A DNA stretch of 64,000 nt. It comes from Physcia stellaris (Eukaryota; Ascomycota; Lecanoromycetes; Caliciales; Physciaceae). The notes under the pieces were generated by a model. That model worked only from the letters and a program-made list of their open reading frames with translations. It did not search any database and was not told the origin of the DNA. The number at the start of each line of letters is the position of its first letter. Position 1 is the first letter of the stretch. The position numbers and the translations under genes were made by a program. This document shows, piece by piece, positions 1-35,594 of the stretch. The stretch lies in contig JABSSW010000003.1 of assembly GCA_018902385.1 (NCBI GenBank), positions 1 to 64,000 of the forward strand. Direction: 5' to 3'.

Positions 1-2167
1 AAACAATCGTCGAAAAATTGAAACGTAAAATTTTGAATTTTTTAAACGTTTCGAAAGTGTATTCAATTCGAAAAAACAAACAAATTATTTTTTCATAAAT
101 TTTACGATCACAAAATCGAATTGATCGAAAATTCGAATCAATTGTTTCGAAATCGAATTTATTTTTTATCGTTCAAAAATTCGAAATTTTCAAAAATATT
201 TACACGATAATTTTCAAAAAAATTTATCAATTCAAACAAGACGTTTTATGTTTCGTTTATTTTATTCGTTGTCAAATCGAATAAACAATTTCGTTTGTAC
301 GTAAATTATCGAAAATTGAACGTCATAATCAAACGTAATAATTATTTTATTTCGTTGATTGAAAAAATTCTCGTTAAAATTATCGATTGTAAATTTTTGT
401 TCAAATTGAATATTATATCGATTTTCAATAAATTTCGAATGAATTCACAAAACGAAAATTTTATTATTTTTATATGTTCGTTAAACATTTACAAATATCA
501 TGTATTGTTTTTCGATTTTATCAATGATTCGATCAATTGACAACATTACATGAACGATTTGTTGTTTGAATATATTAATCATTTTTGTCAAATGTATTTG
601 AATGATATTTTCATTTATAACAAAATTCGAAAACAACATGAACGACATTTCATTCAAATATTTCAAAAATTGAAAAAAATTGATTTTCAAATCGATATCA
701 AAAAATGCGAATTTTTTCAAACAAAAATTTCATTTTTAAAAATCATATTATCGACAAAAAATTTACGCATGAATTTCAAAAAAATGTAAAATATTGTCAA
801 TTGAATTCGTTCAACGTGCATCAAAAAAATGCAAACGTTTGTGAATTTTTGTAATTTTTATCGACGTTTTATTAAAGCGTTTTCGAAATTCGTCAAATTT
901 TTAATTCGAATAATCAAAAAAAAATTGATTTCGAATGAATCGATTTCGTTAACGAAATATTCGAAATTTTGAAAAAACAAATAATCGAAATTTCAATTTT
1001 TCGACATTACGATCGCAATCGTAAAATTATTTTGAAAATCGATTTTTAAATTGATTTTAAATGAAATTTTATTTCAATACGACAACGACGAAATGTTTCA
1101 TTCGATAATTTTTTTCAAAAAAAAGATTTTTGTCGAACGCAATTACGAAATATATAACAAAAATTTTTGATCATTATTCGATGTTTGAAACATTGAAAAT
1201 TAAAATTTGAAAATATCAACAAATTTGTCGAAATTTATATCGATCATAAAAATTTGAAAATTTTCATGACGAACAAAAAATTCATTTTTCGTCAAATGCG
1301 TTGAATTGAAATTTTAATCGATTACAATATCAAAATTCAATATCAATTCGAAATCAAAAATGTTAAAACGAACGTTTTGATTCGAATGTTTGAATTTCGT
1401 TTTGTCGATAACAACGAACGAAAATTCTATAAAAAACAAATTTTGTTGTCGTTTTTTCGATTGCAATTATGTTCGATTGACGTTCAAAACGATGTGTACG
1501 AACGAATCATGCAAATCAATCGAATAAATGAAAATTGTATTAATTATCGTCAAATTTTGATCGATGAACAAATCATCAACGAAAAAATAAATTTACAAAA
1601 ATGTTCAAATCGAAACGACGTTTTTTTTAAAAACGAAAATTTATGATTATCAAATCGTTTAAATTTCATGATTGAAATAATTCGCGATATTCACGATCAA
1701 TTTTTTTGTATTTATTCGAACATAAATCGCACGAAAAAATTCATTAAACGTTATTATTATTGATTTAATATGCGATTATTTATCAAACGTTATATTCGTA
1801 ATTGTCACAAATGTCAACGATTTAAAATTTCACACGATGATCGTCATAAATTATTAACATCGTTGTCAATTTTTAATCAACGATGAATGAATATTTCGAT
1901 AAATTTCATAATCGAATTATTTGAATTCAAAAAAAACAACGTTATTTGCACGATTATCGATCGATTAATCAAAAAACGACATTATATTTTTTGCGTGATC
2001 GATGATAATAATTTGACAATCGAAATTTGCGTCAAAATATTTTTTCATTACGTATTTCGCACGTATGATTTATTTTTTTATCGTTTCGAATCGAAAAAAT
2101 CAATTTGTAAATCGCGTTTGAAATTTTTTTGCAAACGTTTGAAAATCAAATGTAAATTGTTTACGAC

Positions 2168-2328
2168 TGTTACGATAAAACGTATTGAATAATAATGTGG
2201 TGAATAAAGTGGTTGAATTGTTACTATCTAGGAGACAGAGTGCGAGATATGGGCCAGGCTGCCAAGGCGCTAGTCCGTTCTTGTCAAGATATCCTGACTC
2301 CAGCCCTATGTGGAGGTTTACCGTAACA
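2168..2328. repeat. Left LTR of element 1
   Basis: A 161-bp repeat, TG...CA, nearly identical to 4369-4529. The preceding five bases ACGAC are the target duplication. Confidence 0.88.
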
Positions 2329-2453
2329 GATGCCACCAACGAAAGAAGATCACAACGCCCTCGTTGTGCCGTGTGGCGGGGACATGCGAGTCGTCCTTCG
2401 AGAAATCTATTAGTAATACATGAAAAGAAGTAAGGAAACGGCCTGTTTCTCCA

Positions 2454-3995
2454 TCAGGGTGTCAAGGATCTCCGAGCCATGATATTGCGACCGCGCTCTT
2501 GAAGCTTCCCAGGTCCATGGCGAGGTGCTTGGTCGAAATGGATTGCACGTAGGTGCCGATGCAGGCCATTGTTCGATCCGAAAGTACCGCGGCAGATGCG
2601 GCAGTCGTGGGACAGGCTTGAGGCTCGAATGGTAGGTGAAACAGGTAGGTGGACCGAGGATTTGCAGATTGCGGCCCCTGGTTGAAAGCGTGAGATACCT
2701 GGCATTTTGTATGGCGAAACGCTTGATATCTCAGAGGTATGCAGGCGGGAGAAGGTCGGTGTTTTGTATGGTAAAACGGCCGATTTCTCAGACACGCTTT
2801 TGGTAGGAGGTGTGGATTTGGCGCGGCTCATTTCCGCAGGCATGAGTTGATTCAAACTCCTCGGATTCGGCGTTTTCGAGCCCTGACTAATCGAGGTGCT
2901 CTGGTTGGCTGCAGGCCTGAAGTAGGAGGTTATTTTGGGCTGGCGGGAGACCTTTGGGGAGGATTCGGTCTTCCTGGTGTGTAATAGGCCTGACTTCGGG
3001 CGCTTCTCAGCAAACATCTCGAACAGGTCATCGATAGTAAGGTAGGGTTTCTGGTGTTGGTGTTTTGGCACTGGTTTCTGAGGGGGGGTAGGCGGCGGAG
3101 TAGGCGGGCAAGTAACTGATGCGGTCTCCAACGCTTTTGGTATGATCTTTGGTGTGAGGACTGGGAGACGCGAAGGCTTTGGTGCAATGACTGGGCGTGA
3201 GGCTATTTCGGCCCAGGATATTGGCTTTCTTGGTGTTGCGGGGTCTTGAGGTGGCTGCTTTGGTGTGGCAGGTGGTGTAATAGGAAGTGAGGTATCGGAG
3301 GTCGATTCTGGGTGACTAACAGGTGGTGTGAGCAACAATGCTGGCTCACTCGGTGCTGGAGGTGTTGCAGGAGGTGTAGGCATCGTGGCGGGTTCCGATT
3401 TTGGTGTAGAGGGAGGTGTCATTGGTGCAGATGCTGCAGTTGGTGTAGTTTCTGCGGGCTCGTTTGGTGTAGGCATTGCCGGCTCGCTTGGTGTAATAGG
3501 ACTAGGAGGTGAGGGCATTGCGGACTCGTTTGCGGCAGGCTTTTGGCTCTTCTGGTGGTGATTCTGGATATGTTGATGGAGCTTGGTGTTGCTAGGAAAC
3601 TTCGCTGGGCAACGTCTGCAAGCAAATGCTTCTGCTCGCTCCTTTGCTATGCGGGCTTGTTCGGCTTCTTGACGCTCCGTTTCGATTAGTTTCAATCGCT
3701 CCTCCAAGTCAGCGAGATATGGTATGACCAGAGGGCATTGAGGAGATTTCTGAACGTGTGCTCCCCATGGATTTCCGTGGTGAGGAGAGCACTCCTGATT
3801 CCAATCTTCGACATATACGCAGAATTTGCAATGCTCACAACAAACGGCCGGTCGAAACTTGCTGAATGCAAAGCTGTAGCGCTGTTCAAGTTTGAAGCAT
3901 CCTCCTTCGATTAAAACCTTGTAGCTGGGTTGTTCATGCGGCCAATAGGAGGAATCGAGGCAGGGTTCGGGACCCCATTGAATATCGTAAGGCAT
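2454..3995 (-). CDS. Gag-like zinc-finger protein of element 1, with BIR-like N-terminus
   Basis: A 513-aa open frame fills the element. Residues about 15-90 resemble a BIR (IAP-repeat) zinc fold: a WP and GGCF segment, then C53-x2-C56, tryptophans at 65 and 77, and H80-x6-C87. The spacing between C56 and H80 is longer than in a canonical BIR. A short coiled-coil-like stretch follows at about 95-125. A C2H2 finger lies at about 126-148, then a long Pro/Thr/Ser-rich region (about 155-320). The block KPYLTIDDLFEMF is near residue 325 and ITSYF near 360. A second C2H2 finger is near the C-terminus. The middle and C-terminal half match the gag-like region of element 2, while the N-terminus does not. 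I infer a capsid or nucleic-acid-binding role from the retroelement context. No enzymatic domain is visible. Confidence 0.6.
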   Translation of the reverse strand: MPYDIQWGPEPCLDSSYWPHEQPSYKVLIEGGCFKLEQRYSFAFSKFRPAVCCEHCKFCVYVEDWNQECSPHHGNPWGAHVQKSPQCPLVIPYLADLEERLKLIETERQEAEQARIAKERAEAFACRRCPAKFPSNTKLHQHIQNHHQKSQKPAANESAMPSPPSPITPSEPAMPTPNEPAETTPTAASAPMTPPSTPKSEPATMPTPPATPPAPSEPALLLTPPVSHPESTSDTSLPITPPATPKQPPQDPATPRKPISWAEIASRPVIAPKPSRLPVLTPKIIPKALETASVTCPPTPPPTPPQKPVPKHQHQKPYLTIDDLFEMFAEKRPKSGLLHTRKTESSPKVSRQPKITSYFRPAANQSTSISQGSKTPNPRSLNQLMPAEMSRAKSTPPTKSVSEKSAVLPYKTPTFSRLHTSEISSVSPYKMPGISRFQPGAAICKSSVHLPVSPTIRASSLSHDCRICRGTFGSNNGLHRHLRAIHFDQAPRHGPGKLQERGRNIMARRSLTP

Positions 3996-4095
3996 TTGGT
4001 GGATAGATAGGTAGACGGGTATGCTGATGCCAACTGGCTAGATATTTGGGCTGCGGAGGACTCGTGATGTTTTGGCGCCGAATGGCTAGGTGTTT

Positions 4096-4155
4096 CTGGT
4101 GCAATAGATGCTGGTGCAATAGATGCTGGTGCAATAGATGCTGGTGCAATAGATG
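4096..4155. repeat. 15-bp tandem repeat, four perfect copies
   Basis: The unit CTGGTGCAATAGATG is repeated four times head to tail in the untranslated part of element 1, between its ORF start and the LTR. The perfect copies agree with a young insertion. Confidence 0.9.
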
Positions 4156-4368
4156 CTGGTTGTTGCAGAGCAACTGAGGCCGTTATCGTCAGGCAGGACT
4201 GGGTGCGTTTATCGTCTGCTGGACTGGATGTTGCAGAGCAACTGATGCAATTATCGTCTGCCGACTAGATGCTCCACAGGGGCTAGATACTGCACCGCAG
4301 TTGGATGCTGCTCATGCTAATGAGACAGCGATAGAAGCTGTCAATCGTTACTCGATGATGCTACCATT

Positions 4369-4529
4369 TGTTACGATAAAACGTATTGGATAATAATGTG
4401 GTGGATAAAGTGGTTGAATTGTTACTATCTAGGAGACAGAGTGCGAGATATGGGCCAGGCTGCCAAGGCGCTAGTCCGTTCTTGTCAAGATATCCTGACT
4501 CCAGCCCTATGTGGAGGTTTACCGTAACA
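4369..4529. repeat. Right LTR of element 1
   Basis: A 161-bp repeat paired with 2168-2328. It is followed by ACGAC, the second copy of the target duplication. Confidence 0.88.
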
Positions 4530-6292
4530 ACGACGTTTCAATTTCAAATCGATAATCAAATCGAACGAATTAATCAAAACATTGAAATTCGTTTACGATT
4601 GTATTGCAATTATCGTCAAAACGATTGAATTGATTGAATCGACATCATGAAATTCGTTAATAACAATGACGTTTTCGCAATCACAAATTTCATTTCGTTT
4701 TTTATCAATAAAAATTATCATTTTCGAATGATTTTTGATTCGAATTTGAATGATTACGAAATCATTAAAAAACGTTTATTAATCAAACAAAACGAATTTA
4801 TCGTCGAAAAAATGAATTGTATCATCGAATGAATCAAAATCAATGTTATTGATATTAAACGAAAAATGATTATTCGAATCAACAAATTTCGTTTTTCGAT
4901 CAATTTTGAAATAAAAAATTATGTATGATTAAATCGTCGTCACATCAAAACAATTCGTTCATTTGACAAATTAAATGACAAAAAATTAAATTCATATTTC
5001 GTTGTCAAAAAAAAAATATTGTTTACGAATTCGAATTGCTCGATGACATGCACATTCATTCAATTTTTCATTTTTGATTGTTAAAAAAAAATTTCAACGA
5101 TTCTTTGAAAAAATAACACAACGATTTTTCGAAATTCGTTATAACGCAAATGAAACGTTCGAATGAAAATTCGACGACATATTGCAATTTCGATATCATT
5201 ATTATCGTTTTCAATATCGTTGTAAATGATCGAATTGAAATTTTCATGATCGCACGTGATATTATGTCGACGACGACGAATTTCAAAATGTTCAAAATAT
5301 CGTCGATGTTTTTCACGAAATTAATTCAAAAACAACAAAATTTGTTTTGCGAAATGATTAAATCGTGTTTTTTATTGTTTGTAATCGATCATAAAACGTT
5401 ATTATCGAATTTTTTACAATTCATTTTCAAATTGATTCAAATGAATTTTTTTATAATTATTCGTTTCGTTGTCATTTCGCGTTATTTACAATCAAAATTT
5501 ACGTCGCATGAAAAATTGAATTGTGTCAAAAACATTTTCAAAAATTGTCGTCAAATCTTATTGAACAATGAATAATATAAAAAACGTGTCATGCATAAAT
5601 ATGAATGAACAACAAAATGTCAAAAAATTCAAATATTTATAAATTCGTCAACAAAATTTTCAATTGTTTATTAATGACACGCGAAATTATCTGTAAAATT
5701 CGTGCAAAATATTTGCTTTTCAAAAAATTTATTATTTACATATTTCGTTAAATGCAATGTACGAATCAATTGTCGTATATGCGATAACATCAACACGTTA
5801 ATCGTGATAACAAAAATTTCGTCGACGTAATCAAATTATTCGTTTTATGATATCAACATGATGTTGTAAAAATTTTCAAATTTGTCGATACGCGAAATCG
5901 CGTTATCAATTATTAATGTTCGTCGAAATTATTTTTTACAAATTGTATAAATTGATCATTTTTCAAAACGTTTATTGCATTCACGTTTTGACGCATGCAA
6001 TGTACACATCGATTTTCGCATATTCGAAAATATCAATGCATTAAAAATTGTAACGACGATTTTATTAACATGTTCAAACTGTTTATTTCAAGAAATAATC
6101 ATATAAATGTTTTCGAAATTTTGACGAATTTATTTCGTTGACGAAATTCATTTCGCGACGTTTCGCGTTTGTTTTTTTGTTTCGACGATCAATCAATTCA
6201 ATCTCATTTAACGACATATTTATATCGCGCAAAACGTTTAAAAAAAATCAATTAATCGTTTCGAAACGAAACTGAAAAAAAACGAAAAATAA

Positions 6293-6507
6293 TGTGACGA
6301 ACGTGTATCGAATTCAACATTTAACAAATTAACATCGAATTAACATCGTTATTTTATTACATCGAATGTTAAAATCGAAATTCGTTTTGACGCATTCAAA
6401 TGATCTAATTTTCTACATATGTTTTTACAGATTTTCATGTATTTGCTTTTCACTTAGAAATTCTCGTGTAATTATGTATTAGTTCAATCAATGCATAACA
6501 TTTCACA
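6293..6507 (+). repeat. Right LTR of Gypsy copy A
   Basis: This repeat of about 215 bp starts TGTGACGAACG and ends ATTTCACA. It belongs to the same LTR family as 11326-11542, 21574-21790 and 32949-33165. It keeps more non-mutated dinucleotides than the other copies. Confidence 0.85.
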
Positions 6508-9500
6508 TATTTTACACAAAACGTGTTCACGACACGTTTAGAAATTTACAAAAATGAACACACGAAATCACGAAATCAAATCAAATTTACAATTTTGATT
6601 TTGACGTCACGCGAAATCATTGTGTGTTTCAATAACAACAATAAAAAAACAATAAATTTATTTTTGACAATTTTGATATTGTACAAAATTGTTAACGTTA
6701 ACGAAACACAATTTAAATACGAAAAATATTTTTATCAAATTATTTCAAAAAAAAAATGATCGTAATGAATTTTTGTGTACGTGTTAAAACGTTAATCAAA
6801 TATTCAATATATTTATCAAAACAAACGACGAACGAAATAAATCGCAAATAAAACAAAAAAAAATCATGCAATAAACGCGAAAAAACGTTTGTTTAACGAC
6901 GACATATTAATATCAATTCGAACAATTGAAAATTAATTTTTTTCATTTCATATTGAAAACGTAACAATGAATAAAATCGTCGTCACGTCATCGATTTATG
7001 AATTACAATAAACATTTTATTATTTGAATTACAATGAACATTTGTTATTGATAATGAAAATGATTCATATAAAAATAAAAATAAATAAAAATCAAAACAA
7101 ATTTATTTATATTTGAAATAACGCAAAAAAATCGATATCAAAATACAAATCGAAAAATAAAAAAATAAAAAAACAATGTTCAAACGTCGATTCGAAAAAC
7201 AATTTCAAAAATAAAAAAGTTTTCATTTTTGCGTTTTATTATTAAATTATTTTAACGATAACAAATAAAAATCAAATTGAAATTATATGTCGATTTAATT
7301 TGACACGAATAAATTATCATGCGTAAAATTAAATAACATTGATAAAACGTAAAAAAATCGTCGTTAAAAAAAACGAAACAAAAACAAAAAAATCGATTTG
7401 AACGATTATTTTTAAAATTAAAAAATTTTGATTTTAACGTTTTATCGTTAAATCATTTGAATTATACAAAAATTTGATTTAAATTGTTTATTTCAATGTT
7501 CGAAAAACAATGCGTAACACAAAAATAAAAAATTACAATCAAAAAAATTCAAATTCGCGAAAAACAAACGTCGAAAAAACGTTTGTTTTCGCGTGTTCAA
7601 CAAAAACAATAATATATTGATAATTCGAACGAATGTTGATTTGAACATATTCGTGTTATATATCATGAATGTCGTGATATATCGCAAATGACAATATCAC
7701 GATTAACAAAAAAATTATCGCATGATCGCGAACATCAACATTGAAATTTAAAAATAAATTTCGATTGAACGTTGCGCAAACAACGAATTAACGTTACACA
7801 AAAAATTATTATCAAAAAAAAATTTTTTAACGAAAAAATTGAAAAATCGAATGAATTATACGCAAAAAAACATCGACGATTCGATTTTGAAAATCAAAAA
7901 AAAAAAACAATTATTATGTCGAGTTAAAATTGTCAAACACGTTAATTTGATCGAATTTAGCGTTTTGATCGATAAAATATAACATTTCGAAAATTTTCAT
8001 TTTTTTTTAATTTTACGATTCAATTTTATCATTATTTACAATGTTATTACGATAATTCATCATCGTTTTCTAAACATTGCGTTTGTTCGTAATCATTTGA
8101 TCATTCAATCGCATATTTTTTTACAGAAATTAACACAACAAATGTACAGAATTTGTCAACGTAACGCATAAAATATCAACGAAAAATTGTCAATATCACA
8201 AATTTTGCGATTGTTAAAATTAAAATATATTATAATTCGCGTCATATTTCGATTCGATTAAAACAAAACGAAAAAATTTATTTACAATTCAACAAAAAAT
8301 ACAAATTGTTTGATAAATCAAATTCGAAATTATTTCAACATAAATGCGAATCATTTCGAATTTTTAAACGTATCGAACGTTTTGCGTACAAATTGAAATT
8401 ATTATCAATATAACGAATTTATTTCGTCGTGTTTATTGTACAATTCGAATTAACATTTGTCGAAATTTTTTTTACGCGCGTTTTCGTTTTCATTATTTTA
8501 ATTTTATTGAAATCGAAAATGATACGAATCAATACAAATTTTATGAAATCGAAAAGTTAATTGAAAAACGAATCAAAAAATACAACAAAATTTTAATCAT
8601 TCAATATTTGATTCGTTGAATAAATTACGATTCAAAATACGACAAATAACGAAATATTTCAATATTGAACAACGTCACGAATTTTATTGAACAATACGAA
8701 TTCAATCATTCGAATGATTTTGATTATCGCAACAACAAACGAAAAACAAAAAAAAATTGATGCATAATATGATTACGCATGATAATAAAACATAAAATTC
8801 AATAAAAACATTAATTTTTCTTTTTTTGATTGACAGATTGTTATGACACAAAATCATATAAATAACATAAAATATGATAACATTATTCAATTAAACTTTT
8901 GCGTCGAAAAAATGTTTTATTGTTTATCGATTCGAAATCGAATGCATTTTGATCAAAACGTTTAAAACGTTTAAAATCAATTTTTAACGTTTTTGATTTT
9001 TTTATATAATACAAGTTTGCCCGTGAATTTTTTCAAAAAAATTCCATGCAGAACTTCAGAATTAGGTTTGAATTTGATAAGATTGCGAAGATCGACATTT
9101 CGCAATTGCTTTGCGATGTCAGCGACTTCGCATCTTAATAACATTTACACTCAATAAGTAAAATATACAAACGAAGGCTCATTTTGAAGCTCATTATGAG
9201 CTCTATTCAAATAATCAATAATATCGAATATTCATCGAGTGCAAAAATTCGAAGTTATGATCGAAATCGCGTTGAATTTGTTTGCAAATCGCCGAGAATC
9301 GGACGCAACACATTTCAGCAGACACAAATTTGACAGCGACGTAATCTTCGAACTCTCAAAACTATTGCGACAATGAATCGATTTGTACAATTCTTGAAGC
9401 GTTGAAATGCGCTTATTCTGTTTTATAATCTTGATTAAATACGCGAAAATCATATGAGGTTGTTGATTGAAATGCAAGATGCGAAGTAACTGTACAGATT

Positions 9501-11325
9501 TCGAAGAGTTGAGCGAAAACACTTTCGCAGACATCTCAATTGGCGATTTGACAACGATGAAGTCTTCGAAACGTCAAAACTATTGCGATAATGAGTCGAT
9601 TTCTATTATTTTTGCAACGTTGAAATGCGCTGATTCTGTTTTACAACTTTGATTGAATACATGAAAATCATATGTGATTGTTGCTTGATGTGCAAGATGC
9701 GAAATAATTGCAAATTATTGAAGCGTTTTGAGATGATCTTGACGTATGTCCCGATTGAAAACTTGAATTCTCAATTGATGAGAGTTATCGACTTTAACGA
9801 ATACGAACGCAGAATTGATCAGAATTTTTCCCGATCGATCACTCGCGTTAAGCGATTTTAATGAATATTTTATTATAGAAAGATTCTATTCGAATTAACA
9901 TCGAGTTTATAAAACATAATATCAAAAAATTGTAATCGATTTTAAATATTTTATATTTGAATAACATTTTCAATCATCGAAAAACATTTTTTGTTACGAA
10001 ATTATAATGTCACATCAAAACGCATGCAGACATGATTTGTTTATTTTTGTTTTTTGAATTGACAATTAATTTTAATTATCGTATCGATTATCGTTTATAT
10101 TCGTTCGTTTCATGTTGTTTTCAAAAAATACGTTCAATTTAATTGATATTAATGATGAATTTTAATTTTTATCGTAAAAAAAAATGACAAAAAAAATTTA
10201 ATGTTTGATTATGCAAACAATTTTCGAATGTCAAATAATTCATGTTAAATGAATGACATTATTGATATAAATGAATCAATAATGTGCAAAAAAAATTCAA
10301 AAAACAAAAACAAATTTTCATTTTTTCGTTCATTGTCAAATTTTTAACAAATAATTGATTGATATTTAAATGAATCATATGTCAAATTCGTTATGATTTG
10401 AATTTTCACGAAATTTCAAAAATAATTTAATTTTAATTACAAATTTGTTTTTGTTTTTGTTTTTGAAATTATTGAAAAATTTTTGATGTAATTTTTCAAA
10501 TATTTGTTTATTGTATTTTTTTTTCGTGACAACGAATACAATTAAAAATTAAATGAACATAATACACGATAAAATTTAAATACGTTAATAAAATCAAATA
10601 TATATATCATGAAAAATTTACAAAATAACATCGATGTAATTGCACGCACGTATTGATAAACGTATTCGTAAATCATTGTTTGAAATACGTTTAATTTCAT
10701 GTACATTTGATTTTTAATTGAATTATTGTTTTCAATACGATTTTTTTTCGAATATTTTCATTTCGACGATTTTGATATCAATATAACAATTTTTCATTCG
10801 AATCAAAATTAAAAATTTTCAAATTTGAATATAATTTTCGAAAACGAACGAATTTTCATTGAACAATTTTCGTAATTCAAACATCGTTTTTGCATTGTTT
10901 CAATTTATGCGTTCGAACAAAATCTGTTTAATAACGATGTTATTGTTCAACGACATTGCAACAAAAATTTTTTTCGTGAATTAATAAATACATTTTGCGT
11001 ATATTTGCAAAAAAATTGATTGATTTTTTTAACGACATGTAACAAACAACGATTTTTGTAACATTGTCGCAATTCGAAATTTCGAATTCGTTTTTGTCAT
11101 TTTTTGTCATCAACATAAAATATATTGTTATCAATTTTGTGTTCATTAAATTTTTTGATTCATATGAAATTTGAAAAAAAAAATCGAATGAATTCAATTT
11201 TTGCAAAACAAAAATTCACGTTGTTTCGAATTTTTTTATATTTTTGTCAATGAAATTGTTGCGATGATACAAATTAATACGATTTTTTTATTACAATTTT
11301 CGATTTTTCAATCGATCGCATTATT
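6508..11325. other. AT-rich DNA without a recognisable gene
   Basis: This is 4.8 kb of hypermutated sequence between copies A and B. I see no host gene, LTR pair or conserved retroelement motif in it. Short open frames are rich in K, N, F and I and look like by-products of AT composition. A less mutated island at about 9010-9860 stands out and contains a diverged tandem duplication. Confidence 0.6.
9310..9708. repeat. Diverged tandem duplication, 218-bp period, in a less mutated island
   Basis: Two units of about 180-218 bp (about 9310-9490 and 9528-9708) share landmarks at a constant offset of 218 bp, for example TCTTCG, ACTATTGCGA and TTGAAATGCGC. The island 9010-9860 has more C and G, and more CpT/ApG, than the flanks. 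No protein homology is evident. Confidence 0.7.
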
Positions 11326-11542
11326 TGTGACGAACGTATATCGAATTCAACATTTGACAAAATTAACATCGAATTAATATCGTTATTTTATCACATCGAA
11401 TGTTAGAATCGAAATTCGATTTGACGCATTCAAAAAATCAAATTTTCTACATATGTTTTTGCAAATTTCATGTATTTGTTTTTCATTTCGATATTTTCGT
11501 GTAATTATGTAATAATATCATATCATTGCATAACATTTCACA
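11326..11542 (+). repeat. Left LTR of Gypsy copy B
   Basis: A 217-bp repeat, TGTGACGAACG...TTTCACA, paired with 21574-21790. Confidence 0.85.
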
Positions 11543-12524
11543 TTATATCGAAATCATTTTTTTTTCATGTTCGTTCATGATACGCGAACATTCAAATAAA
11601 CAAAACTTTTTACAATTAAATTCAGTGAACGAATAAAAACATAATAAATTCAATTTGATTTTGATCATTCAACGAAAACAACGAAACATAATAAATTCGT
11701 TGTGAATTGAAAAAAACGAAACATAATAAATTCGTTTGTTTTGTTTTAAAAAACGTTCAAAACAGACGAATTCACGCGATAATTTCGATTCACAATACAA
11801 CAAATTTTTTTTTTTTATCATTTTTGACGAAACATTCGTGTTTGAAAATCAGAAAATCATCAAATCAAATTATTAAAAAACACATCAACAAACAAATATT
11901 TTTATTCAACATTCATTTGTTTCATCATAAACAAATATTTAGAAATTTCATTCAACATCACATCGAATTTGTCATTTTGAATGAAATTCAATCATTAAAA
12001 TTTATTTAAATCATTGTTTTGTTCATTTTTTTTTTTTTTCTGTTTCAACAATTATTCGATTTCAATTCACAATCATGATTTTTTCAAGTTTTTTTTTCGA
12101 AATCAATTTGAAAAATCGATTATTGTTTAACGAAATTACACAATTGAACGTGTATGTTTTTGATCGAATAATCACGAATTTCGAACAACATATCATCGAC
12201 ATTTTTTTGTTTTAAATTTTAATCAAAATGACGATGAATTTGATAAAAATGAATCGTTCAAAATCGTTAATTCGATAAACATTTTTTCGAAACAATAATT
12301 TCAATCAATGATCGTCAATTATTTCGACGAATTATGAATTATTTTCGAAATTTTTCGACGAAATCGAAATCGAAAAATGATCGTCATTCGAATTTGAAAT
12401 TTTCAAATAAAAAACATGAAAATCAAAATTTCGAATCATAATAAAAAAAATATAAAATCAACGAAATTTTGCGTGTCGTCAAAGTCGAAATTTCTGTTGT
12501 TCAAATTCAATGTAATGAATTTTT

Positions 12525-12711
12525 TGTGACGAGCGTACTACTTATGTGTTGGCCCCTGGTAGGTGTTTAGACCCTTATCTTATCACACCGGGATCCTGGC
12601 CCGGATCCCGGCTATGACCAAACCACCTACATATGCTCTGCCAGGCCTCCATAGTTAGTTCTGCAGTCTAGAATCCTGTTGTTTACCCATATCATTGCAT
12701 GGCACCTTACA
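12525..12711 (+). repeat. Left LTR of element 2
   Basis: A 187-bp repeat identical as read to 15204-15390. It begins TGTGACGAGCG and ends CACCTTACA. It contains AGTCTAGAAT at 12665-12674, complementary to the putative primer site downstream. Confidence 0.92.
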
Positions 12712-12713
12712 TT

Positions 12714-24262: not shown

Positions 24263-24582
24263 TGTAAAAAATAAAAATTCAAAATTTTCGAAAATGCGAT
24301 TCGCATTTCGTCAAACAATTCAATTATCGAAATTCGAATAATTTCGAAAAAAATCAATTTCAATCATTTTACAATTCGATCAACGATAAATTCAACAAAT
24401 TCATATTGTCAATCGAAATCGATCGAATTCGTACGATTGAATAAATAAAATATGAATAAAAAACAATTGCAAAACGTAATTTGTTTTGTAATAATTAATA
24501 AATCAATATATTACATTTCAAATTATACATTTTTGATGTCAATAATTCATTAAATTATATTATTTCTAATACGAATTTTACA
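24263..24582 (+). repeat. Left LTR of Gypsy copy C
   Basis: A 320-bp repeat that matches 30581-30894 with scattered transitions and a few small gaps. Confidence 0.85.
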
Positions 24583-27500
24583 TTTTAATCGTTAATATAT
24601 TTCAAAATGATGTTATTCGTGTATATTTAACAAAACACAATTTTGTTGTTTCGCATATATCATGTCGAATTTTGATAATGATTTGTTTTTTGAATTTGTC
24701 GAAAATGTTAATTTTTTTTTGATTGATTTATTACAAACAATAAATCGAAAAAAATCACAAAAAAAATCAAAATCAAAATTCGAATTGTCAATCGTTCGAA
24801 ATTTACAATCATTATTTCATTTGTTTTTATTTCATTTATTTTTGATTTTGATTTTGTTTGAAAATTTTTCGTCATGAAAATCATCGAGACGACATCGAAT
24901 CAATATGAAAAAAAAAATTACAAAAAATGAAAAAAATATTGCAAACAAATGAAAAATCAATTTACGCAAAACAACGTGAATCATATAATTTAATTTTTGA
25001 ATTTAATTAAAATCGCATATATTAATATTTATTTTAAATCAAATAACAATAAAAACAAATTTTGAAACGCAAAAATCGATTTTCATTCAAACAAACAATA
25101 CATTTGAATCGAATTCAAAATTTTTTTGAAAAACGACATCGAACGAACAATCACGTTATAACAAAATTTTTTGAAAAAATATCGCAAACACAAACAAAAT
25201 CACAATCAATCGATTAAAAATTACAATGTCGAACGAATAAATATGTTTGTTGAATTGAAATTCGAATTCAAATTCACGAAAACAATGAAATTTAACGATT
25301 TTCGTGACGAATTACGTTTGAAATTTCGTTGAATACTATTTAAAAAAAAGAAAATTTTCAAAAACGAAATTGTTTGAACGATTCAAACGTATGAAAAACG
25401 TTCAAATTTTGAAAAAAAAAATTCAAAAATTTCAAAAACGTAAAATTTCGTTCGATATTGACAATTTTGAAAACGAAAACGAAAAATTCAAAATTGCGAA
25501 ATTTAAAAATAAAAAAATCAAAAATATTAACAAAATCAATTCGAATCACGAATCAATCAAATCGAAAAATACTCGAATGTATCGTTGATTCGTTAACGAA
25601 TTCAAAAAAATTCAAAACAAAAATAATTGTATAAATTGTGACAAATCAAATCATCAAATCGAAATTTGCACAAACAAAAAAAACAAAATCATTTTCGTTG
25701 ATCAAATTTTTGAACAATCAAAAAATTAATCGATTTGATGATTTTCGTTCAAATCGTTAAAAAAAAAATTTCGAATTTTGATTTCGATACGTCGTTTTTT
25801 TCAAACATGAACAAAAATCATATTAACAAAAAAAAACGACGCAAAAAATTTAAAAAATTTGTGATTCGTAAATGCGTTAAAATCAAAATTAACATACAAA
25901 ACAAAAATCAAATTTGAAACGAATCGAAAACAATATTCGATACAAAAACGAAAATTAATTTGATAAATCATGTTTATGCGAAAAAATTCGATTTTCGTCG
26001 TTTCGAAATTTTAAATTGTGATGCAATAACAATTGACAATCATCGTTTGAAAACATATGACGTTTATTTCGTACAATTCGAAATGTCAAACGTAAAAAAA
26101 TCAATCATTTTTTCGAAAAATCGTTTTTGATCGTGAATTTGAATTGAAATTTAACGTTAAACATGTTTTGAATACAATTTTCGAAAATCAAAATAAATTG
26201 AAACGACGACAATATCAAAATTTGACGTTGCAAAAAAAAACATTTCATTTTCACGACGAATCGTATCGAAAATATCGAATTAAAACAATTGATCATAAAC
26301 GTCATCGATAACGAAATTGAAACGTATTTCATGTTCGTACGAATATATATTGACAAACAATTCGACATGTATGAAATGCACGTTTCGAAACGAATTCAAA
26401 TAAAATTTGTTTTGATTGAAATGAAAAAAAAAATCGATATCAAAATCACGTTTTTCGATATTTTGAAAACGTATGAAAAATTCGATAACGAAAATAAAAT
26501 TTACGAATTATCGAATCATGATTCAAACGATCATGTTATTGATTTAAAAAAAAACAAAAAATCGTCGCATGAATCAATTTATTTTTTATTTGAAAATAAA
26601 TTTCGAATATTACGTGTTTACATCGAAAAACATTTAATTAACGATTTCATTCGATTTTCACAATTTTTTGCTAAAACGTTCATTTTGTTCGTAAAAAAAA
26701 ACGATAATTTACGTTTATGAATAAATTACAAAATTTTTCATGTTTTCACGATAAAAAATAAATATTTTTTATCGTTAATCGATGAAAATTTAAATAAATT
26801 CAATGAAATCGTCAAATATATCAATATCGATTTGATTGTTATTTATTATCGATTGCGTATCAAGTATAAAAACGAATGAAAAACAATTTTTCGTATTCGA
26901 TATAATCATTTCGAATATAACGTATTTTTTTTCGATTTCATTAACGTTTCGACGACGTTTCAAAATTTTATCAATCGAATTTTAACGATTCGTTTCGATA
27001 TTAACGTCATAATATATTTGAACGATATAATAATTTATTCGATAAACGTCGAAATTCATGTCGACGATATTAAATGAATTTTTGATCGTTTTAAAAAAAA
27101 TAAATTATATATTGTTTTTGAGAAATGCAAATGATTCGTTGACGAAATAAATTTTTTTGAATTCGTTGTTTCATTCAAAAAAATACGAATGCAAAACAAA
27201 AAAATCGAAATTATTCAACAATGATTTGTATTTCGCAACGTTTTCGACATTATGCAATTTTTCGATATCGTTAATTTTTATCGACGATTCATTAAACATT
27301 TCAATAAAATTATTGAATTTCTGATCGTTATGTTAAAAAAATCGCAAAAATTACGAAAAAATATTCGTAAACGTAAACGAAATCAAAATCGAAATCGCAA
27401 CAAATTTTCGAATATTCACATTTTTTTGATCAATGAAACGTTGAAAATTTTCAAACGATTTCGCAAAACATTTATCGAAATATCAATTTTACGTCATTTC

Positions 27501-30500
27501 GATTTCGAACGTGTTATTCGAATCGAAATCGACGTATTCGACAAAATTATCGAAATCATTTTAAATCAACAAAACGACGAAAATTATTGACATTTTGTTG
27601 CGTATTTTTCACGCAAAATGATTTCGATCGAATGCAATTACGAAATTCATGACAAAAAATTGTTGATTATTGTGATTTCGTTCAAACAATGAAAACATTA
27701 TTTCGAAAACGCAAAAAAACAAATTTTTGTTTTTATTGATTATCGCAATTTGAAACAATTTATAATCACAATTAAATTGTCGTCACGTCAAATTCGATGA
27801 ATTCAAAAATTGAATCGATATAATTTTTTAATCGATTATCGTTTCGATAACAAAAATTTTGTTGACGAATTTTCAAAACGATTTGATCACATGATGATTA
27901 TTGAAAAAAACGTCGAAAACAATCGTCAAATTTTAAAACAATTGCAAAAATCATTAATCGCAAACTCGAAACATTTCGAAAAAATGCGAATAAATGCGAT
28001 CAAAATCATGAATGCGATGCATGTTATGAAACGATTCATGAATGCGATACATAACATGAAACGTCGATCGCATTTAAATGATTCAAAAAATATTGAATCA
28101 ATCAACGTTGTTTCAAAAACATTTGATTCAAAAAATTCAAAACGAAATCGAATTTCAATCAACGTTGTTTCGAAAACATTCGATTCAAAAAATTCAAAAA
28201 ATTCGAAATATTCGATTGAACAAAAATCAAACGTGACATTCATAAAATGAAAATTTTTTGTGTTAAAATTAACGATTGTATTTGAATACGCAATGCATAA
28301 AATTCGAATACAAATTGTTTTACGAAAAAAAACGACATATAACGACGAATCAACATTTTCATTGTTGAATTTCGTTCGAAATTTGATCGATAAAAATCAA
28401 TTCGTTTTTGAAATATGTCGAAAATTAATTATTTCGAAAACAAAAACAAATCATGACAACAAAAATGAATTTTTGTATTACGACGACGTCGTTTACATTT
28501 CAAAAATTTGCGTGAAAACGTTATTCGTGTCAATCACGATAATTTCGTTCGTTGATTATTTCGACATCGAACGAACGTTAAAATTGATACGTCGAAAATA
28601 TTATTGATCGAATCAAAATTTTATCGAAATTTTTGAAATGCGACAACAAATAAAAAATATGAAACATGCGTCGTTTGCAAACGAAACAAAATTGCACGAC
28701 ATAAATCATACGACGAATTTTTTTTTTTCGATTTTTGAATTTAAATGAATTGATTTTTTTATGAATTTCGTGACAAAATTTTTTTAAATAAAACATGAAA
28801 TGAAACGATTTACGATTCGATTTTAATGATTGTGAATCGTTTAACGAAAATGATTCATTACATATTAAAATTCAACGATTAAAACGATTTTTTCAAAAAA
28901 TTTGATCGAAATTTTATTTCGCGAAATCATTCGATTTCACGATTTTTTTTCGTCGATCGTTATCGACAAAAATTTCATTTTAAACATTCAAATACAACGA
29001 TGCGTTTTGTTACGTTTTGAAAATTAAACGTAAATTGTCAATCGTTTTTTATTTTCAAATCGAAACAAATCGAACGAATAATCGAAAAACGTCAACGAAA
29101 AATTTTTTCGCGTTTTCGTCAATTTCGAACAAAATGATTGAATAAAATTGTTTTTATGATCGAATTCGTTTACAACAACAACAAAACGCATTCACAAACA
29201 TTTTTTCGTTTAAAATCATGTTTGAATATTTTTCGCATGTTTTTCGAAAAAACATGAAACAAAAAAATTAAATTCAAATTCGCAAAAAACACGTTGAACA
29301 TTTAATGAATTATTTTAAATATTGAAAAACAATTTATTCGTGATCAACAACAAACAAATGTACAAAAAAACGAAAAAATTGCAAAAATAACGAACGAAAT
29401 TAATGTCATACAACGTCGAAAATTACGTGAATTTGAACGATAAAAACATCAAAATTGAACGAAACAAAAAATTGAAATGAAATTTTTTGAATTATTTCAA
29501 ATTTTAAAAATTATAAAAAATCAAATTTATTGTTTAAATTTATTCAAACGTTGACGCATTTACAAACGACGTTTTTCACGTTTTTTTTAAAAAAATTCAA
29601 TGTTAAAAAAACATACGTCACATTTTTCTGAATTTTCGTATCAAGTTGAAAATATTGAATTCGACGAAAACATGAAAAAAATGAAAATCACGAAAAAATT
29701 TTATGAAATCGAAATCATTAAAAACAACAAAATTTTCAAAACAAATGAAATTTCAAACAAATTTTACAACGAATTCGATTTTTACTATTTGATAAAATAA
29801 AAAAATTATAAAAACGCAATTTGAAAATTGCATCGTTTGTCAAATATTTTCGAAAAATTTTGCGATAATTTCATAACGAAAATTCAAAAAAAATCAATTT
29901 GAAAAAAAAAAAACAAATCATCGAAAATCACGAAAAAAATGAATTGAAATATTTATTGCATATTAACACATTTTCGTTTTCAAAAATTTTGTGTGTTATT
30001 TATTGTTTAAAATTTACGACGCATGAAAAATTGAATTGTGTCAAAAACATTTTCAAAAATTGTTATTCGATTTGATCGAACGATAAATCGTTAAATAAAA
30101 AATGTGAAATGAAATAAAAAAAATTTCGAAAATTTGAATATCAATGCGATCGCGATTAATGAACGTTTATCGCGTTACATTTTTTTTCATAATATCGATA
30201 TTGATATTCGAAATGAAAAAATAAAAAAATGAAAAAATGTTCGAATTCAAAAATTTTTGTCAATAAATCAATTGTCAATCATCATATCGAAAATTGTAAA
30301 TAATACGAAATCAAACATTCGATCATGAAAACAGCAAACAATTGATTTATTAAATTATGTTTTTTTTGAATCATTCAAAAAAATGTTTTTTCAAATTTTT
30401 AACGCAAACTGATTATTGAATTCGAACAAAAATATTTCAAAATGCGAAAATCACGATTATAATGATTTTTCAAATCAATGCAAAATTAAAACAAACAAAA

Positions 30501-30580
30501 CATGTCAAAACAAACAAAATACGTCAAACTTTTTGTTAACATGTTGATTTCAAAAAATTTCGATATTTAAAAAAAACGTA

Positions 30581-30894
30581 TGTAAAAAATAAAAATTCAG
30601 AATTTTCGAAAATGCGATTCGCATTTCGTCAAGCAATTCGATTATCGAAATTCGAATGATTTCGAAAAAAATCAATTTCAATCATTTTACAATTCGATTA
30701 ACGATAAATTCAACAAACTCATATTGTCAATCGAAATTGATCGAATTCGTACGATTGAATAAATAAAATTGAATAAAAACAATTGCAAAACGTAATTTGT
30801 TTTGTAACGATTAATAAATCAATATATTACATTTGATTATACATTTCTGATGTCAATAATTTTAAATTATATTATTTCTAATACGAATTTTACA
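30581..30894 (+). repeat. Right LTR of Gypsy copy C
   Basis: A repeat of about 314 bp ending TACGAATTTTACA. A similar short tail, TATACGAATTTTACA, recurs near 35480-35500. Confidence 0.85.
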
Positions 30895-33165
30895 GAATTG
30901 ATATATCGATAAATTTCATAATTGAATTATTGATTTCAGAAACAATAATGTCATTTGTATTATTATCGATCGTTTAATCAAAAAACGTCATTACGTTTTT
31001 TGCGTGATTGATGACGATAATTTAACAATTCAAATTTGTGTCAAAATATTGTTTCATTATGTATTTCGTATTCATGAATTATTTTCATTCATTATTTCAA
31101 ATCGAAATGATCAATTCGTAAATCGCGTTTGAAATTTTTTTTGTAAACGATTGAAAATCAAATGTAAATTGTTTATTGTTTTTTAATTTGAAATCGATGA
31201 TCAAATCGAACGAACAAATCAAAATATCGAAATTCGATTGCGTTTGTATTGCAATTATCGTTAAAACGATTGAATTGATTGAATAAATATCATGAAATTC
31301 GTTGACAATAACGATGTTTCAACAATCATCGAATTCATTTCATTTTTCATTAATAAAAATTATCATTTTCGAATAATTTTTGAATCAAATTTAAATGATT
31401 ACGAAATCATTAAAAAACGTTTGTTGATTCAACAAAACGAATTTATTGTCGAAAAAATGAATCGTATTATCGAATACGTCAAAATCAATATTGTCGATGC
31501 AAAACAAAAAATAATTGTTCGAATCAACAAATTTCGTTTTTCAATAAATTTTGAAATAAAAAATTACGTTTGATTAAATTGTCGTTATGTAAAAACAATT
31601 CGTTCGTCAAACAAATTGAACGACAAAAAATTGAATTTATACAAAATATTCAAAAAAAAAATTTCGTTTATGAATTGAAATTGTTCGACGATATGCACAT
31701 TTATTCAATTTTTCATTTTTGATTATTAAAAAAAATTCTAAAAATTCGTTGAAAAAACAACATAACGATTTTTTAAAATCAATTATCGCAAACGAAATGT
31801 TTGAATGAAAATTCGATAATATATTGCAATTTCGATATTATTATTATCGTTTTCAATATCGTTGCAAATGATCGAATTAAAATTTTTATAATCGAACATA
31901 ATATTATGTCGACGATAACGAATTTCAAAATGTTCAAAACATCGTGAATGTTTTTCACGAAACTAATTCAAAAACAACGAAATTTGTTTTACGAAATGAT
32001 TAAATTGTAAACATCGTTTATGATCGATCAAAAAACGTCAACATGAATTCGTTACAATTCATTGTCAAATTGATTCAAATAATTTCGATTTCGATTTTTC
32101 GTTTTTATGTTATTTCGCGTTATTTATTGTCAAAATTTACGTTGCATGAAAAACTGAATCGTATCAAAAATATTTTCAAAAATTGTCGTCAAATTTTATT
32201 GAACAATAAATAATGTAAAAAACGTGTCATGCAATGATATGAATAAACAACAAATTATCAAAAATTTCGAATATTTACAAATTCGTCAACAAAATTTTCA
32301 ATTGCTTATTAATGACACGCGAAATTATTTGTAAAATTCGTTCAAAATGTTTGTTTTCAAAAAAGTTTAATACATACACATTTCGTTGAATGCAATGTAC
32401 GAATCAATTATCGTATATGCGATAATATCGACGCGTTAATTTTGATGACGAAAATTTTATCGACACGATCAAATTGTTCGTTTCGTGATATCAATTTGAT
32501 ATTGCAAAAATTATCAAGATTTTTGACGCGTTAAATCGAATTCGCAATTGTTTGTTTATTGATGTTCGTTGAAATTATTTTTGACGAAACGTATAAATTG
32601 ATTATTTTTTAAAACATTCATTACATTCACGTTTTGTCGCATGCAATGTACACACAAATTTTCGCATACGCGAAAATATCAATGCGTTAAACATTGTTAC
32701 GATGATTTTATTAACATGATCAAATCGTTCATTTTATCGTAAATCGATTTGATGTTTTCACGAATTTTGACAAATCGATTTCGCGAACGAAATTGATTTC
32801 ACAACATTTCGAATTTATTTTTTCATTTTATCAATCATTCAATTCAACGTCATTCAACAGCGCATTTAGATCGCGCAAAACGTTCGTCGAAAAAAAAAAT
32901 TCAATTGATCGTTTCGAGACGAAATTGAAAAAAAAAACGAAAAATAATGTGACGAGCGTACATCGAATTCAATACTTGACAAAATTAACATCGAATTAAC
33001 ATCGTTATTTTATCACATCGAATGTTAAAATCGAAATTCGACTTGACGCATTCAAAAAATCAAATCTTTTACATATGTTTTTACAGATTTTCATGTATTT
33101 GTTTTTCACTTCGATATTTTCGTGTAATTATGTAATAATATCATATTATTGCATAACATTTCACA
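30895..33165 (+). mobile_element. Ty3/Gypsy fossil, copy D (truncated: integrase to right LTR)
   Basis: Starting directly at the end of copy C, this segment is collinear with copy B from about 19525 to its right LTR. It covers the later integrase region, the 3' tail and a 217-bp LTR at 32949-33165. The upstream two thirds of the element is absent here, and I cannot find it to the left of copy C. It is heavily broken and old. Either copy C was joined by recombination, or a larger copy was deleted. Confidence 0.8.
32949..33165 (+). repeat. Right LTR of Gypsy copy D
   Basis: A 217-bp repeat, TGTGACGAGCG...TTTCACA. Its first 14 bases match element 2's LTR exactly. Confidence 0.85.
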
Positions 33166-33450
33166 GTTTCATCAAGAACAAAACTCGTGATTTATTATGT
33201 ATTCGACAATTTTTTATCGAAATTTTTAACGATTATCGCATATCGTTAATAAATAATTTATTCGTGATTTTCACAATTTTCGAAATTAAAATTTATGAAA
33301 TTTTTCTAATTACATTATTCGACGCATATATCGAAATCTGTTCATTAAAATTTGAATATTAATGTCGAACAATCGTTTTTTTATTTTTGATTTGAATCGT
33401 TGCAAATCGTTTATTCGACTTTGATTTAAATCGTTATATTTTTATGAAAA
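33166..33450. other. Short AT-rich spacer
   Basis: I see nothing recognisable. It is slightly less mutated than the blocks to its left. Confidence 0.5.
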
Positions 33451-33640
33451 TGTTACGAGCATGTCTTGAGAAAAACGTTGATAAAATTTTATTTTATCAA
33501 CGAAAATTCATATGAAAATTAGCGCGATTTAAAATTTGACGTTCACAATTTACTTTTGACATTCGATCATCGTGTACATATTTGCTTTTTAAATCAAATA
33601 TTCTCGTTATGTTATTTGTTTTCTGAACACGCATCTGACA
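33451..33640 (+). repeat. Left LTR of element E
   Basis: A 190-bp repeat that includes a strong hairpin: GTTGATAAAA and TTTTATCAAC around a 5-nt loop, at about 33478-33502. Confidence 0.85.
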
Positions 33641-35280
33641 TTATATTTGATTTTCATCGTGACGAACGATATAAAATTCACATTCGCAAACGATTTGCGA
33701 ATTAAAAAAAACAAAATCGAATCAATTCGTGACGATCGCACATTTTTAACACGAAATCTCTTTATCAATTGCAATGACGATGACGAAATCATTTTTACGT
33801 TTTCAACATAACACGATTTTTCGTTCTGAATTCTGCGAAACTAATTGACATTCGACAAAACGTTTTGTTTCGAAACAGATTGCTCGTCGAGATACGCGAA
33901 TAAGCAAAATAAAATCGTCAAAATGTGAAATTTTCTTAAAGAAAAATCACGAAACAACAAATCGAATTTTTCTGAATGAAGCAACAGAACGAATTTTCAC
34001 GAAACGAAAATTTTCTCGAGAGAAGTCACGAAACAACAAAACGAATCTTCGTGAATTGAATGAAAAATTTACATAAAACATTTTCAAGTCAACGAAACGA
34101 AAATTCTTTTTCGAAAACGATGATTGCATTTTATTTTCATTTGACGCATCGTGAGTCAACGAAAATGATCGTGAATTTGCGAAAATGACAATCAATTGTT
34201 GATTTTTTTGTTCTGAAAATCAATTAATCAGTAAATTTGCTACAACGACAATCAATAGTCGATTTTCTTGTTCGTCGAAATCAGTCGACATCTAATCAAT
34301 AAACGATTTTCATGTTTTTTCGAATCAATCAATTCATCTATTCTCGAATGATTTTTACAATAATCATTTTCTTGAAACGTTGAAACATCGTTTGATAAAA
34401 ATAAAAATAAAAATCATACACAACAACAATTTTATATCAAATCAACAAACAATCATTCAAAATCATCAACAAAATTTTCGATTTTTAAACTTGTTACATT
34501 TTCAACATTGTCGAAAAATTTATTCGTTTCGTTTCGTTTCGTCAGTGTTTCAACGAGTCTGTCTGTTTTAATGACACTCAATGAGTTCGTTACAACGATT
34601 AATGAATTTATTTCAATGAAATTTTATTAATGAATTTGTTTCAACGACGTCAAAAACGCATGCGTTCGATTTTTTACATTTTCGCAATCAACATCAACGA
34701 AAATGAATTTATTACATACAAACGATACGAAAACAAAAAACATGAATAGATAAAAAACACGAATCATTTGAGTTTGCTATTCAGTCAAAACAGTTCGTTT
34801 TTTTCGTAATCGTTTGTTCGTTGTCAGTGCGTTAACATTTTGTCAATCAAATTTTTTGTTTCAAAATCTGCAATCAATCAAAACGCGTCGATTAATAAAA
34901 ATTCGAAAAGCACAAATTCGAAAAGTTTGAAACAACATACGTTCGCGAAATCGATATCGTTTTGTTCTTTTGTTTTTGTTTTGTTCGAAAAATCGATCGT
35001 TTCATCATATTAATCTGCAAATATTTTTCACATCGATCGAAATCAAAATTCTCAACAAGATTTTCATTCTCGTCGCATATATATATTTTTTTCTTTCTCG
35101 CACATTTTTTGTTTTCGAATTTATTTCTTCACGTTTATCGCATTTGTTATGAAATTTTCAGCGTCAATCATGATCAGACAAATATTTGAATTTCAGTCAA
35201 TAAATTTTTTTCGCAATGTCGATCGTTAGAAAAATGATTTATTCGTTTCGAAACGAAACTTGAAAAAGACGAAAAGATAA

Positions 35281-35470
35281 TGTTACGAACATGTCTTGAA
35301 AAAAACGTTGATAGAATTTTATCTTATCAGCGAAAATTCATATGAGAATTAGCGCGATTTAAGACTTGACGTTTACAATTTACTTTTGACATTCGATCAT
35401 CGTGTACATATTTGCTTTCTAGATCAAATATTCTCGTTATGTTATCTGTTTCCTGAGCACGCACCTGACA
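35281..35470 (+). repeat. Right LTR of element E
   Basis: A 190-bp repeat paired with 33451-33640, less mutated than the left one. Its end marks the edge of the AT-rich block. Confidence 0.85.
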
Positions 35471-35594
35471 AAAAAAATATTTTATACGAATTTTACAGTT
35501 TAAATTCAATAAAGAAAATAATTAAAATCAGACGTCGAGATAGTTTTCAGTTTTATGTGTAATGTAACGAAAAAGACATACACAATACATTATG

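Follow-up and report, generated by a model that had tools for sequence, protein, structure and literature searches.

Cytosine loss before pyrimidines in nested retrotransposons of Physcia stellaris points to a RIP-like mutation process with an unusual sequence context

We analysed a window of 64 kb from the filamentous ascomycete Physcia stellaris (assembly GCA_018902385.1, contig JABSSW010000003.1, positions 1 to 64,000), in which positions 1-35470 are mostly nested long terminal repeat (LTR) retrotransposons and positions 35601-64000 are ordinary gene DNA. All coordinates are positions in this single window, and all composition and pair results were drawn from it. The transposons have lost, on both strands, nearly every cytosine that is followed by a pyrimidine (CpY, that is CpC or CpT), and the neighbouring genes are spared. 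Repeat-induced point mutation (RIP) changes C:G to T:A on both strands of duplicated DNA, with limited leakage and a preference for CpA; it acts before meiosis and depends on a methyltransferase of the RID class (or DIM-2). The process seen here is a well-supported mutation process and a variant of the RIP-like kind: it makes the same C:G-to-T:A change on both strands in repeats, and it lacks the CpA preference and the TpA product by which RIP is recognised. Direct observation covers the change of C to T, the context and order of rates in which it occurs, its location in transposons and the sparing of genes. An earlier note on this DNA had suggested a C-to-T process that prefers a 3' pyrimidine; support for it now comes from base composition, rate fits, LTR pairs, a related unmutated LTR and the stop codons of a Ty3-like reading frame.

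Base composition of the transposon block

The earlier note had counted 16 CpA, 18 CpG, no CpT, no CpC, no ApG and no GpG in positions 18601-18900, and these counts are exact. The loss it claimed for the whole repeat block proved stronger than stated. In four saturated blocks (1-2167, 4530-9000, 9901-12524 and 15396-32800; 26,667 bp in total, GC content 0.22-0.24, CpY 1.2-2.6% of C sites), the 6,101 cytosines of the two strands are followed by A 2,999 times, by G 3,008 times, by T 94 times and by C never. In 200 mononucleotide shuffles CpY averaged 3,049 and never fell below 2,964, against the 94 observed. CT/AG and CC/GG are lost alike, and the pattern is strand-symmetric. The proposed extent, 1-35500, holds for the saturated blocks but is not uniform, since 2168-4529 and 12525-15390 are unmutated and 9001-9900 and 33451-35470 only partly mutated.

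If gene DNA is assumed as the ancestor, retention in the saturated blocks is 0 of 3,021 for CpC (0%), 94 of 3,547 for CpT (2.6%), 2,999 of 3,597 for CpA (83%) and 3,008 against 2,851 expected for CpG (about 105%); with the young elements as the ancestral model the values are 0%, 2.7%, 79% and 104%. CpA is touched lightly and CpG shows no net loss in composition, so that the claim that both are kept stands for CpG and needs qualification for CpA. Run to completion on the genes of the window, a change of CpY to TpY predicts a GC content of 0.241 against the observed 0.229 and leaves a dinucleotide divergence of 0.03 bits; CpT only, the runner-up of 10 rules, leaves 0.158, and a CpA rule 1.82. 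TpC is kept in the saturated blocks (TCA 1,561, TCG 1,677), and the 5' base frequencies follow from the CpY rule with no 5' term added. Residual GCT is rarer than ACT, which a change of RGCT to RACT (R, purine) under the same CpY rule would account for, so no 5' effect is claimed.

Both indices in common use for RIP read negative in all four saturated blocks. TpA/ApT is 0.46-0.53, against a usual threshold of at least 0.89, and (CpA+TpG)/(ApC+GpT) is 1.23-1.55, against at most 1.03 (thresholds as given in PMC3828140). Depletion of CpG, as left by deamination of 5-methylcytosine in the manner of methylation induced premeiotically (MIP) or of basidiomycetes, is also absent from these blocks, where CpG reaches 104-106% of expectation. 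In the genes of this window, from 35601 onwards, there is no CpY deficit: over 36501-64000 CpY makes up 50.5% of C sites, the lowest 200-bp window has 34.5%, and the correlation with GC content is r = 0.03. As CpY does not track GC content in gene DNA, a general effect of AT-rich sequence is spoken against.

Layout of the window

The features used below are as follows, with the strand given where one was assigned.

1-2167: saturated block depleted of CpY, forming the left part of element copy A1; CpY 1.2%; 1-2161 is 91.8% identical to 17626-19798.
2168-4529, minus strand: island 1, an unmutated young LTR element; GC 0.513, CpY 50.9%; LTRs 2168-2328 and 4369-4529.
2163-2167 and 4530-4534: 5-bp target duplication of island 1, ACGAC.
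4530-9000: saturated block, right part of copy A1, with an LTR at 6293-6508; CpY 2.6%; 4536-6516 is 83.9% identical to 19806-21800.
9001-9900: partly mutated stretch, CpY 27.4%, with an internal tandem duplication 9328-9510 and 9546-9727 (81%; period 218 bp).
9901-12524: saturated block of repeats with a family A LTR at 11326-11546; CpY 2.4%.
12525-15390, plus strand: island 2, an unmutated young LTR element; GC 0.515, CpY 51.6%; LTRs 12525-12711 and 15204-15390, identical.
12520-12524 and 15391-15395: target duplication of island 2, TTTTT.
15396-32800: main saturated block, which holds copy A2 (as far as 21794), element G and the greater part of copy A3; GC 0.227, CpY 1.2%.
16713-18353, plus strand: degenerate frame of 547 codons with TGA read as tryptophan; 4 TGA, 0 TGG, 16 CAA.
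24263-30894, plus strand: element G, a Ty3-like LTR retrotransposon in the saturated state; its LTRs lie at about 24263-24582 and 30581-30894 and are 94.7% identical as a pair.
25959-28784, plus strand: degenerate Ty3-like pol frame within element G, 942 codons, 18 TGA; RT_RNaseH E 5.6e-21, Ty3-G Gag-Pol 7q5b E 9e-34.
30896-33168: copy A3, 94.4% identical to A2.
33451-35470: element E, a partly mutated LTR element; CpY 15.3%; LTRs 33451-33640 and 35281-35470.
35476-35600: short AT-rich transition zone beyond element E; CpY 9 of 29 C sites, GC 0.232.
35601-64000: unaffected gene DNA used as control, with genes named by Pfam; CpY 50.5%, GC 0.488.

Direction and context of change in repeat pairs

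The LTRs of element E give a test that does not depend on composition. Over 190 bp they differ by 15 transitions and no transversion (a sixteenth mismatch of the 195-bp match lies outside the LTR), and the earlier count of about 15 differences, all transitions and all but one in CpT or CpC, is borne out: 12 are CpT, 2 CpC and 1 CpA. By site, the two copies differ at 2 of 2 CpC, 12 of 19 CpT, 1 of 25 CpA and 0 of 20 CpG, which makes 14 of 21 CpY against 1 of 45 CpR (cytosine before a purine; Fisher p 2e-8). The presumed target duplication of E reads GAAAA on the left (33446-33450), where G follows T, and AAAAA on the right (35471-35475), where G would follow A; the CpY rule predicts both.

The LTRs of element G differ at 4 of 5 CpT sites, 2 of 30 CpA and 2 of 32 CpG, with 12 transitions to 3 transversions. 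A third comparison is provided by the unmutated LTR of island 2, a relative of the mutated family A LTRs. Against the copy at 11326, changed sites amount to 23 of 25 CpC, 14 of 17 CpT, 8 of 26 CpA and 0 of 10 CpG; against the other three copies the ranges are 23-24 of 25-26, 11-14 of 17, 8-12 of 24-26 and 0 of 10, respectively.

Rate models

Rates were fitted by a random search over simulations, so that their last digits carry little meaning. Across three regions of differing exposure, the relative C-to-T rates are 2.4-4.1 for CpC, 1 for CpT, 0.02-0.16 for CpA and at most 0.02 for CpG. Starting from gene DNA, the saturated blocks gave kC:kT:kA:kG = 4.1 : 1 : 0.04 : 0 with a log likelihood (lnL) of -60,568, to be compared with -60,564 for the saturated model, -65,391 for equal rates and -70,222 for a 10-to-1 CpA rule. 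From the same start, and at lower exposure than the saturated blocks, element E gave 3.6 : 1 : 0.02 : 0.002 and the stretch 9001-9900 gave 3.2 : 1 : 0.15 : 0.02. When island DNA was the start, CpC came to 2.7 in E and 2.4 in 9001-9900, and CpA to 0.04 and 0.16. A coarse grid of 60 sampled settings per region, superseded by the later fit, had returned the same rate order.

Reading frames

Under the CpY rule TGG becomes TGA, and CAA and CGA stay; reading through TGA should therefore restore the frames of the transposons, unlike reading through TAA or TAG. The longest frame between stops in 15396-32800 indeed grows from 431 to 942 codons when TGA is read and remains at 431 when TAA or TAG is read, the maximum with TGA read being 249 codons in 20 first-order simulations. 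The sum of frames of at least 150 codons is 3,838 with TGA read, against 942 in simulations; with TAA read it goes from 1,073 to 2,908, where simulations average 2,072. By definition the 942-codon frame at 25959-28784 contains no TAA or TAG, and what is informative is its length and its codon content: 18 TGA and no TGG, 29 CAA and no CAG, 33 CGA, and not a single proline or glycine codon. Such a frame is hard to account for had CpA been a target. The shorter frame at 16713-18353 has no Pfam match.

Young elements and timing

Islands 1 and 2 are unmutated and embedded in saturated DNA. The flanks of island 1, once joined, align without a break to the uninterrupted copy A2 (19710-19904; 195 bp, 87%); together with the target duplication this shows that island 1 was inserted into a copy of A, and its flanks are saturated and island 1 itself is not. 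The LTRs of island 1 differ at 2 of 161 sites, both of them CpC, as though mutation had just begun. Between the LTRs of island 2 there are no differences, and no full empty-site match for its flanks was found within the window. At the other limit of the transposon block, past the outer LTR of element E, the CpY deficit is confined to about 125 AT-rich bases (9 of 29 sites).

Both islands are short (2.4 and 2.9 kb), and their three scanned open reading frames (ORFs) gave weak C2H2 zinc-finger matches only and no polymerase; the ORF of island 1 matched Pfam zf-C2H2_4 below the cutoff (E 0.00024). Their size, content and ends suggest that they are non-autonomous counterparts of larger LTR elements; island 2 has LTR ends in common with the mutated family A. 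When the islands were converted and compared with the AT-rich blocks by plain BLAST, most of the matches listed had about 57% identity; these were attributed to composition and set aside.

Interpretation

We consider it likely that these transposons have undergone RIP-like hypermutation that attacks C before a pyrimidine. In this proposal C would be changed to T on both strands of transposon DNA wherever the 3' neighbour is a pyrimidine, fastest at CpC, then at CpT, about 6-60 times more slowly at CpA than at CpT, and slowest at CpG. New LTR elements would be free of mutation on insertion, would next be mutated in part, as element E is, and would finish saturated with about 23% GC. The target would be picked by homology or by heterochromatin. 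In our view the likeliest agent would be an enzyme of the DIM-2 or RID class (DNMT1 family) with a changed recognition of the +1 base. An enzyme-set mutation context would have a precedent in Dim2 of Zymoseptoria tritici, which favours CA.

A stronger form of the proposal is conceivable, although we would not lean towards it: a separate genome-defence mutator, mechanistically distinct from canonical RID-driven RIP, whose catalytic step reads CpC and CpT and rejects CpA and CpG. Just as tentatively, such a mutator would inactivate coding DNA through tryptophan codons turned to TGA and the complete loss of proline and glycine codons, and not through CAA or CAG turned to stops.

Several points weigh against hypermutation of the kind proposed. 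The evidence comes from one 64-kb window, and the retention figures rest on an assumed ancestral composition. With island DNA as the start, the fit to the saturated block falls 20 lnL units below the saturated model and does not determine the CpC rate (81.8). In its central part, the alignment of the island 2 LTR to the mutated LTRs is uncertain. Within the window the stretch 9001-9900 is duplicated in tandem but nowhere else, and a complete second copy of element E is absent; that repetition is what selects the target is something we infer, with copy number judged within the 64 kb. The two tandem copies in 9001-9900 make a weaker case than the LTRs of E, differing at 10 of 16 CpY yet also at 8 of 41 CpR, with 22 transitions and 13 transversions (by context CpC 1 of 1, CpT 9 of 15, CpA 4 of 23, CpG 4 of 18). 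Moreover, the LTRs at 11326 and 21574 differ at 8 of 34 CpA, 2 of 2 CpT and 0 of 22 CpG, and older A copies differ at between 46 of 282 and 68 of 231 CpA and at between 16 of 262 and 39 of 199 CpG. Saturated copies have almost no CpY left to lose, and their differences fall at CpR; a slower CpR process, with CpA ahead of CpG, trails the main one.

An unlikely explanation, though one to be taken seriously, is slow decay and not RIP at all: a DIM-2-like enzyme preferring CpC and CpT would methylate heterochromatic repeats in each generation, and methylated C would decay, or be converted, to T in mitosis. Neurospora DIM-2 is said to prefer CpT in a 2026 review (PMC13297926), functional Dim2 of Z. 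tritici promotes mitotic C-to-T change in repeats, there at CA (PMC8016269), and element E is caught half-way, with LTRs that differ site by site. The absence of transversions between these LTRs favours a fast process; this argument is weak, as transitions to transversions stand at 12:3 in G and at 92:23, 126:41 and 194:108 in the A copies. Methylation alone does not set the rate, since CG, which is methylated more than any other context in Z. tritici, is not highly mutated there (PMC8016269). That same study, in which CG and CA are the most methylated contexts, lends something to a much less probable scheme in which a cytosine deaminase of broad range acts on repeats, with CpA and CpG shielded by a methyltransferase that has the usual specificity. 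The end state would be identical, but two activities and near-complete shielding are required, and the lead of CpC over CpT is not explained by this model alone.

The signatures of classical RIP, CpG deamination, ultraviolet (UV) damage and APOBEC-like editing are each contradicted by the counts. It is highly improbable that the pattern was produced by RIP of the ordinary CpA type in which CpT is a secondary target, of the sort described for Botrytis, Sclerotinia and Magnaporthe. CpT signatures are indeed known beside CpA (PMC4352252), and two papers place CpT to TpT first among the changes seen when RIP-proficient fungi or elements are aligned (PMC7882544, PMC2621366); here, however, 79-83% of CpA is retained against 0% of CpC and 2.6-2.7% of CpT, both RIP indices fall on the wrong side in four saturated blocks, 29 CAA codons persist within the 942-codon frame, and the 10-to-1 CpA rule is about 9,650 lnL units worse. 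UV-type dipyrimidine damage, or a deaminase of the APOBEC/AID kind with a 5' context, has next to no probability: CpC and CpT are dipyrimidines, but TpC is retained in the numbers given above, and the 5' base frequencies need no 5' term. We give equally little credit to an assembly artefact, foreign DNA or a quirk of base composition. The judgement is made from the assembled sequence of the window; against such an origin stand the strand symmetry, the sparing of young insertions, the end of the pattern within about 130 bp of element E, the Ty3-like frame that opens under TGA read-through, and the LTRs of E, which diverged after insertion in the same context.

Comparison with known systems

The proposed hypermutation shares with RID-dependent RIP of Neurospora crassa the C:G-to-T:A change on both strands, the location in transposons, the AT-rich relics and the sparing of genes. 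It differs in that RIP takes CpA and leaves an excess of TpA, whereas here CpC and CpT go and CpA and CpG stay. In Magnaporthe, Botrytis and Sclerotinia, ascomycetes with a gene of the RID class, CpT is likewise mutated in transposons (Amselem et al. 2015, PMC4352252), but CpA is also a signature there, and CpC does not occur as a word in the main text of that paper. Zymoseptoria tritici resembles our case in that an enzyme of the DNMT1 family drives C-to-T change in repeats mainly in one dinucleotide, with CG not highly mutated; it differs in that the context is CA and that CT is hardly methylated by Dim2 (PMC8016269). Short ribosomal DNA (rDNA) repeats of Stagonospora nodorum, described with RIPCAL (PMC2621366), show high CpT to TpT without CpA to TpA. 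They differ from our locus in being short rDNA repeats in which the authors doubted RIP and in which the parts of the report consulted describe no CpC loss. Basidiomycete transposons with a CpG or TpCpG bias (PMC4352252, PMC4014442) also show a context-bound C-to-T change, but CpG, their target, is retained here. In the Rhizoctonia table of single nucleotide polymorphisms (SNPs), CpC is the commonest C-to-T class per bp; the authors stress CpG, and the SNPs occur in genes and repeats alike (PMC4014442).

Some published observations weigh against novelty. CpT to TpT outnumbers CpA in Neurospora Tad1 alignments (RIPCAL, PMC2621366) and is dominant in the RIP-capable controls of a 2021 survey (PMC7882544). 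Double changes of CpC to TpT occur in Monilinia alongside classical CpA change (PMC8959702), and in one nematode-trapping fungus the CpA of repeats is not lowered despite both indices being positive (PMC3828140). As far as these sources go, published CpT signatures mostly accompany CpA loss, and among the open-access matches listed, PMC10998396, PMC11969663, PMC5148876 and PMC3516569 included, there was in the text available from them no report of CpC-plus-CpT loss with CpA and CpG kept. With respect to possible enzymes, in the MAGGY element of Pyricularia methylation at CpA exceeds that at CpC or CpT (PMC7979813), and the 2026 review lists in vitro RID catalysis as not detected (PMC13297926). 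A kingdom-wide screen of 2025 (1,239 species in one count) concluded that RIP-like defences share the CpA preference (PMC12543289), to which this locus is a clear exception.

It is still not settled in the field how RIP comes by its preference for CpA, and a naturally occurring variant that prefers the opposite kind of base at +1 would serve as a direct comparison when target recognition is mapped. Since TpA/ApT and the CpA-substrate index are negative here, surveys may misjudge which fungi possess a RIP-like defence; were the mutator a distinct one, it might occur unnoticed in other fungi for the same reason. The locus also illustrates a different route by which transposons are wrecked, in which stops are made from tryptophan codons only and the glutamine codon CAA and the arginine codon CGA are spared.

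Other features of the window

Rfam gave no match at gathering thresholds. Pfam was run on 18 of the 30 listed ORFs of at least 150 amino acids, and there was no methyltransferase among the 18 scanned. Relatives of POM152, scytalone dehydratase and the island 2 ORF were absent from the viral contigs searched, as were those of POM152 from the genome contigs. The genes named by Pfam in 35601-64000 are those for scytalone dehydratase, a GH17 protein, a C54 peptidase, a J-domain protein, a transglutaminase-like/YccV protein and POM152. Scytalone dehydratase and POM152 would, from what is generally known of these families, fit a filamentous ascomycete. The scytalone dehydratase frame (37240-38118) runs about 150 residues beyond the known domain, which may be an extension or an unspliced intron.

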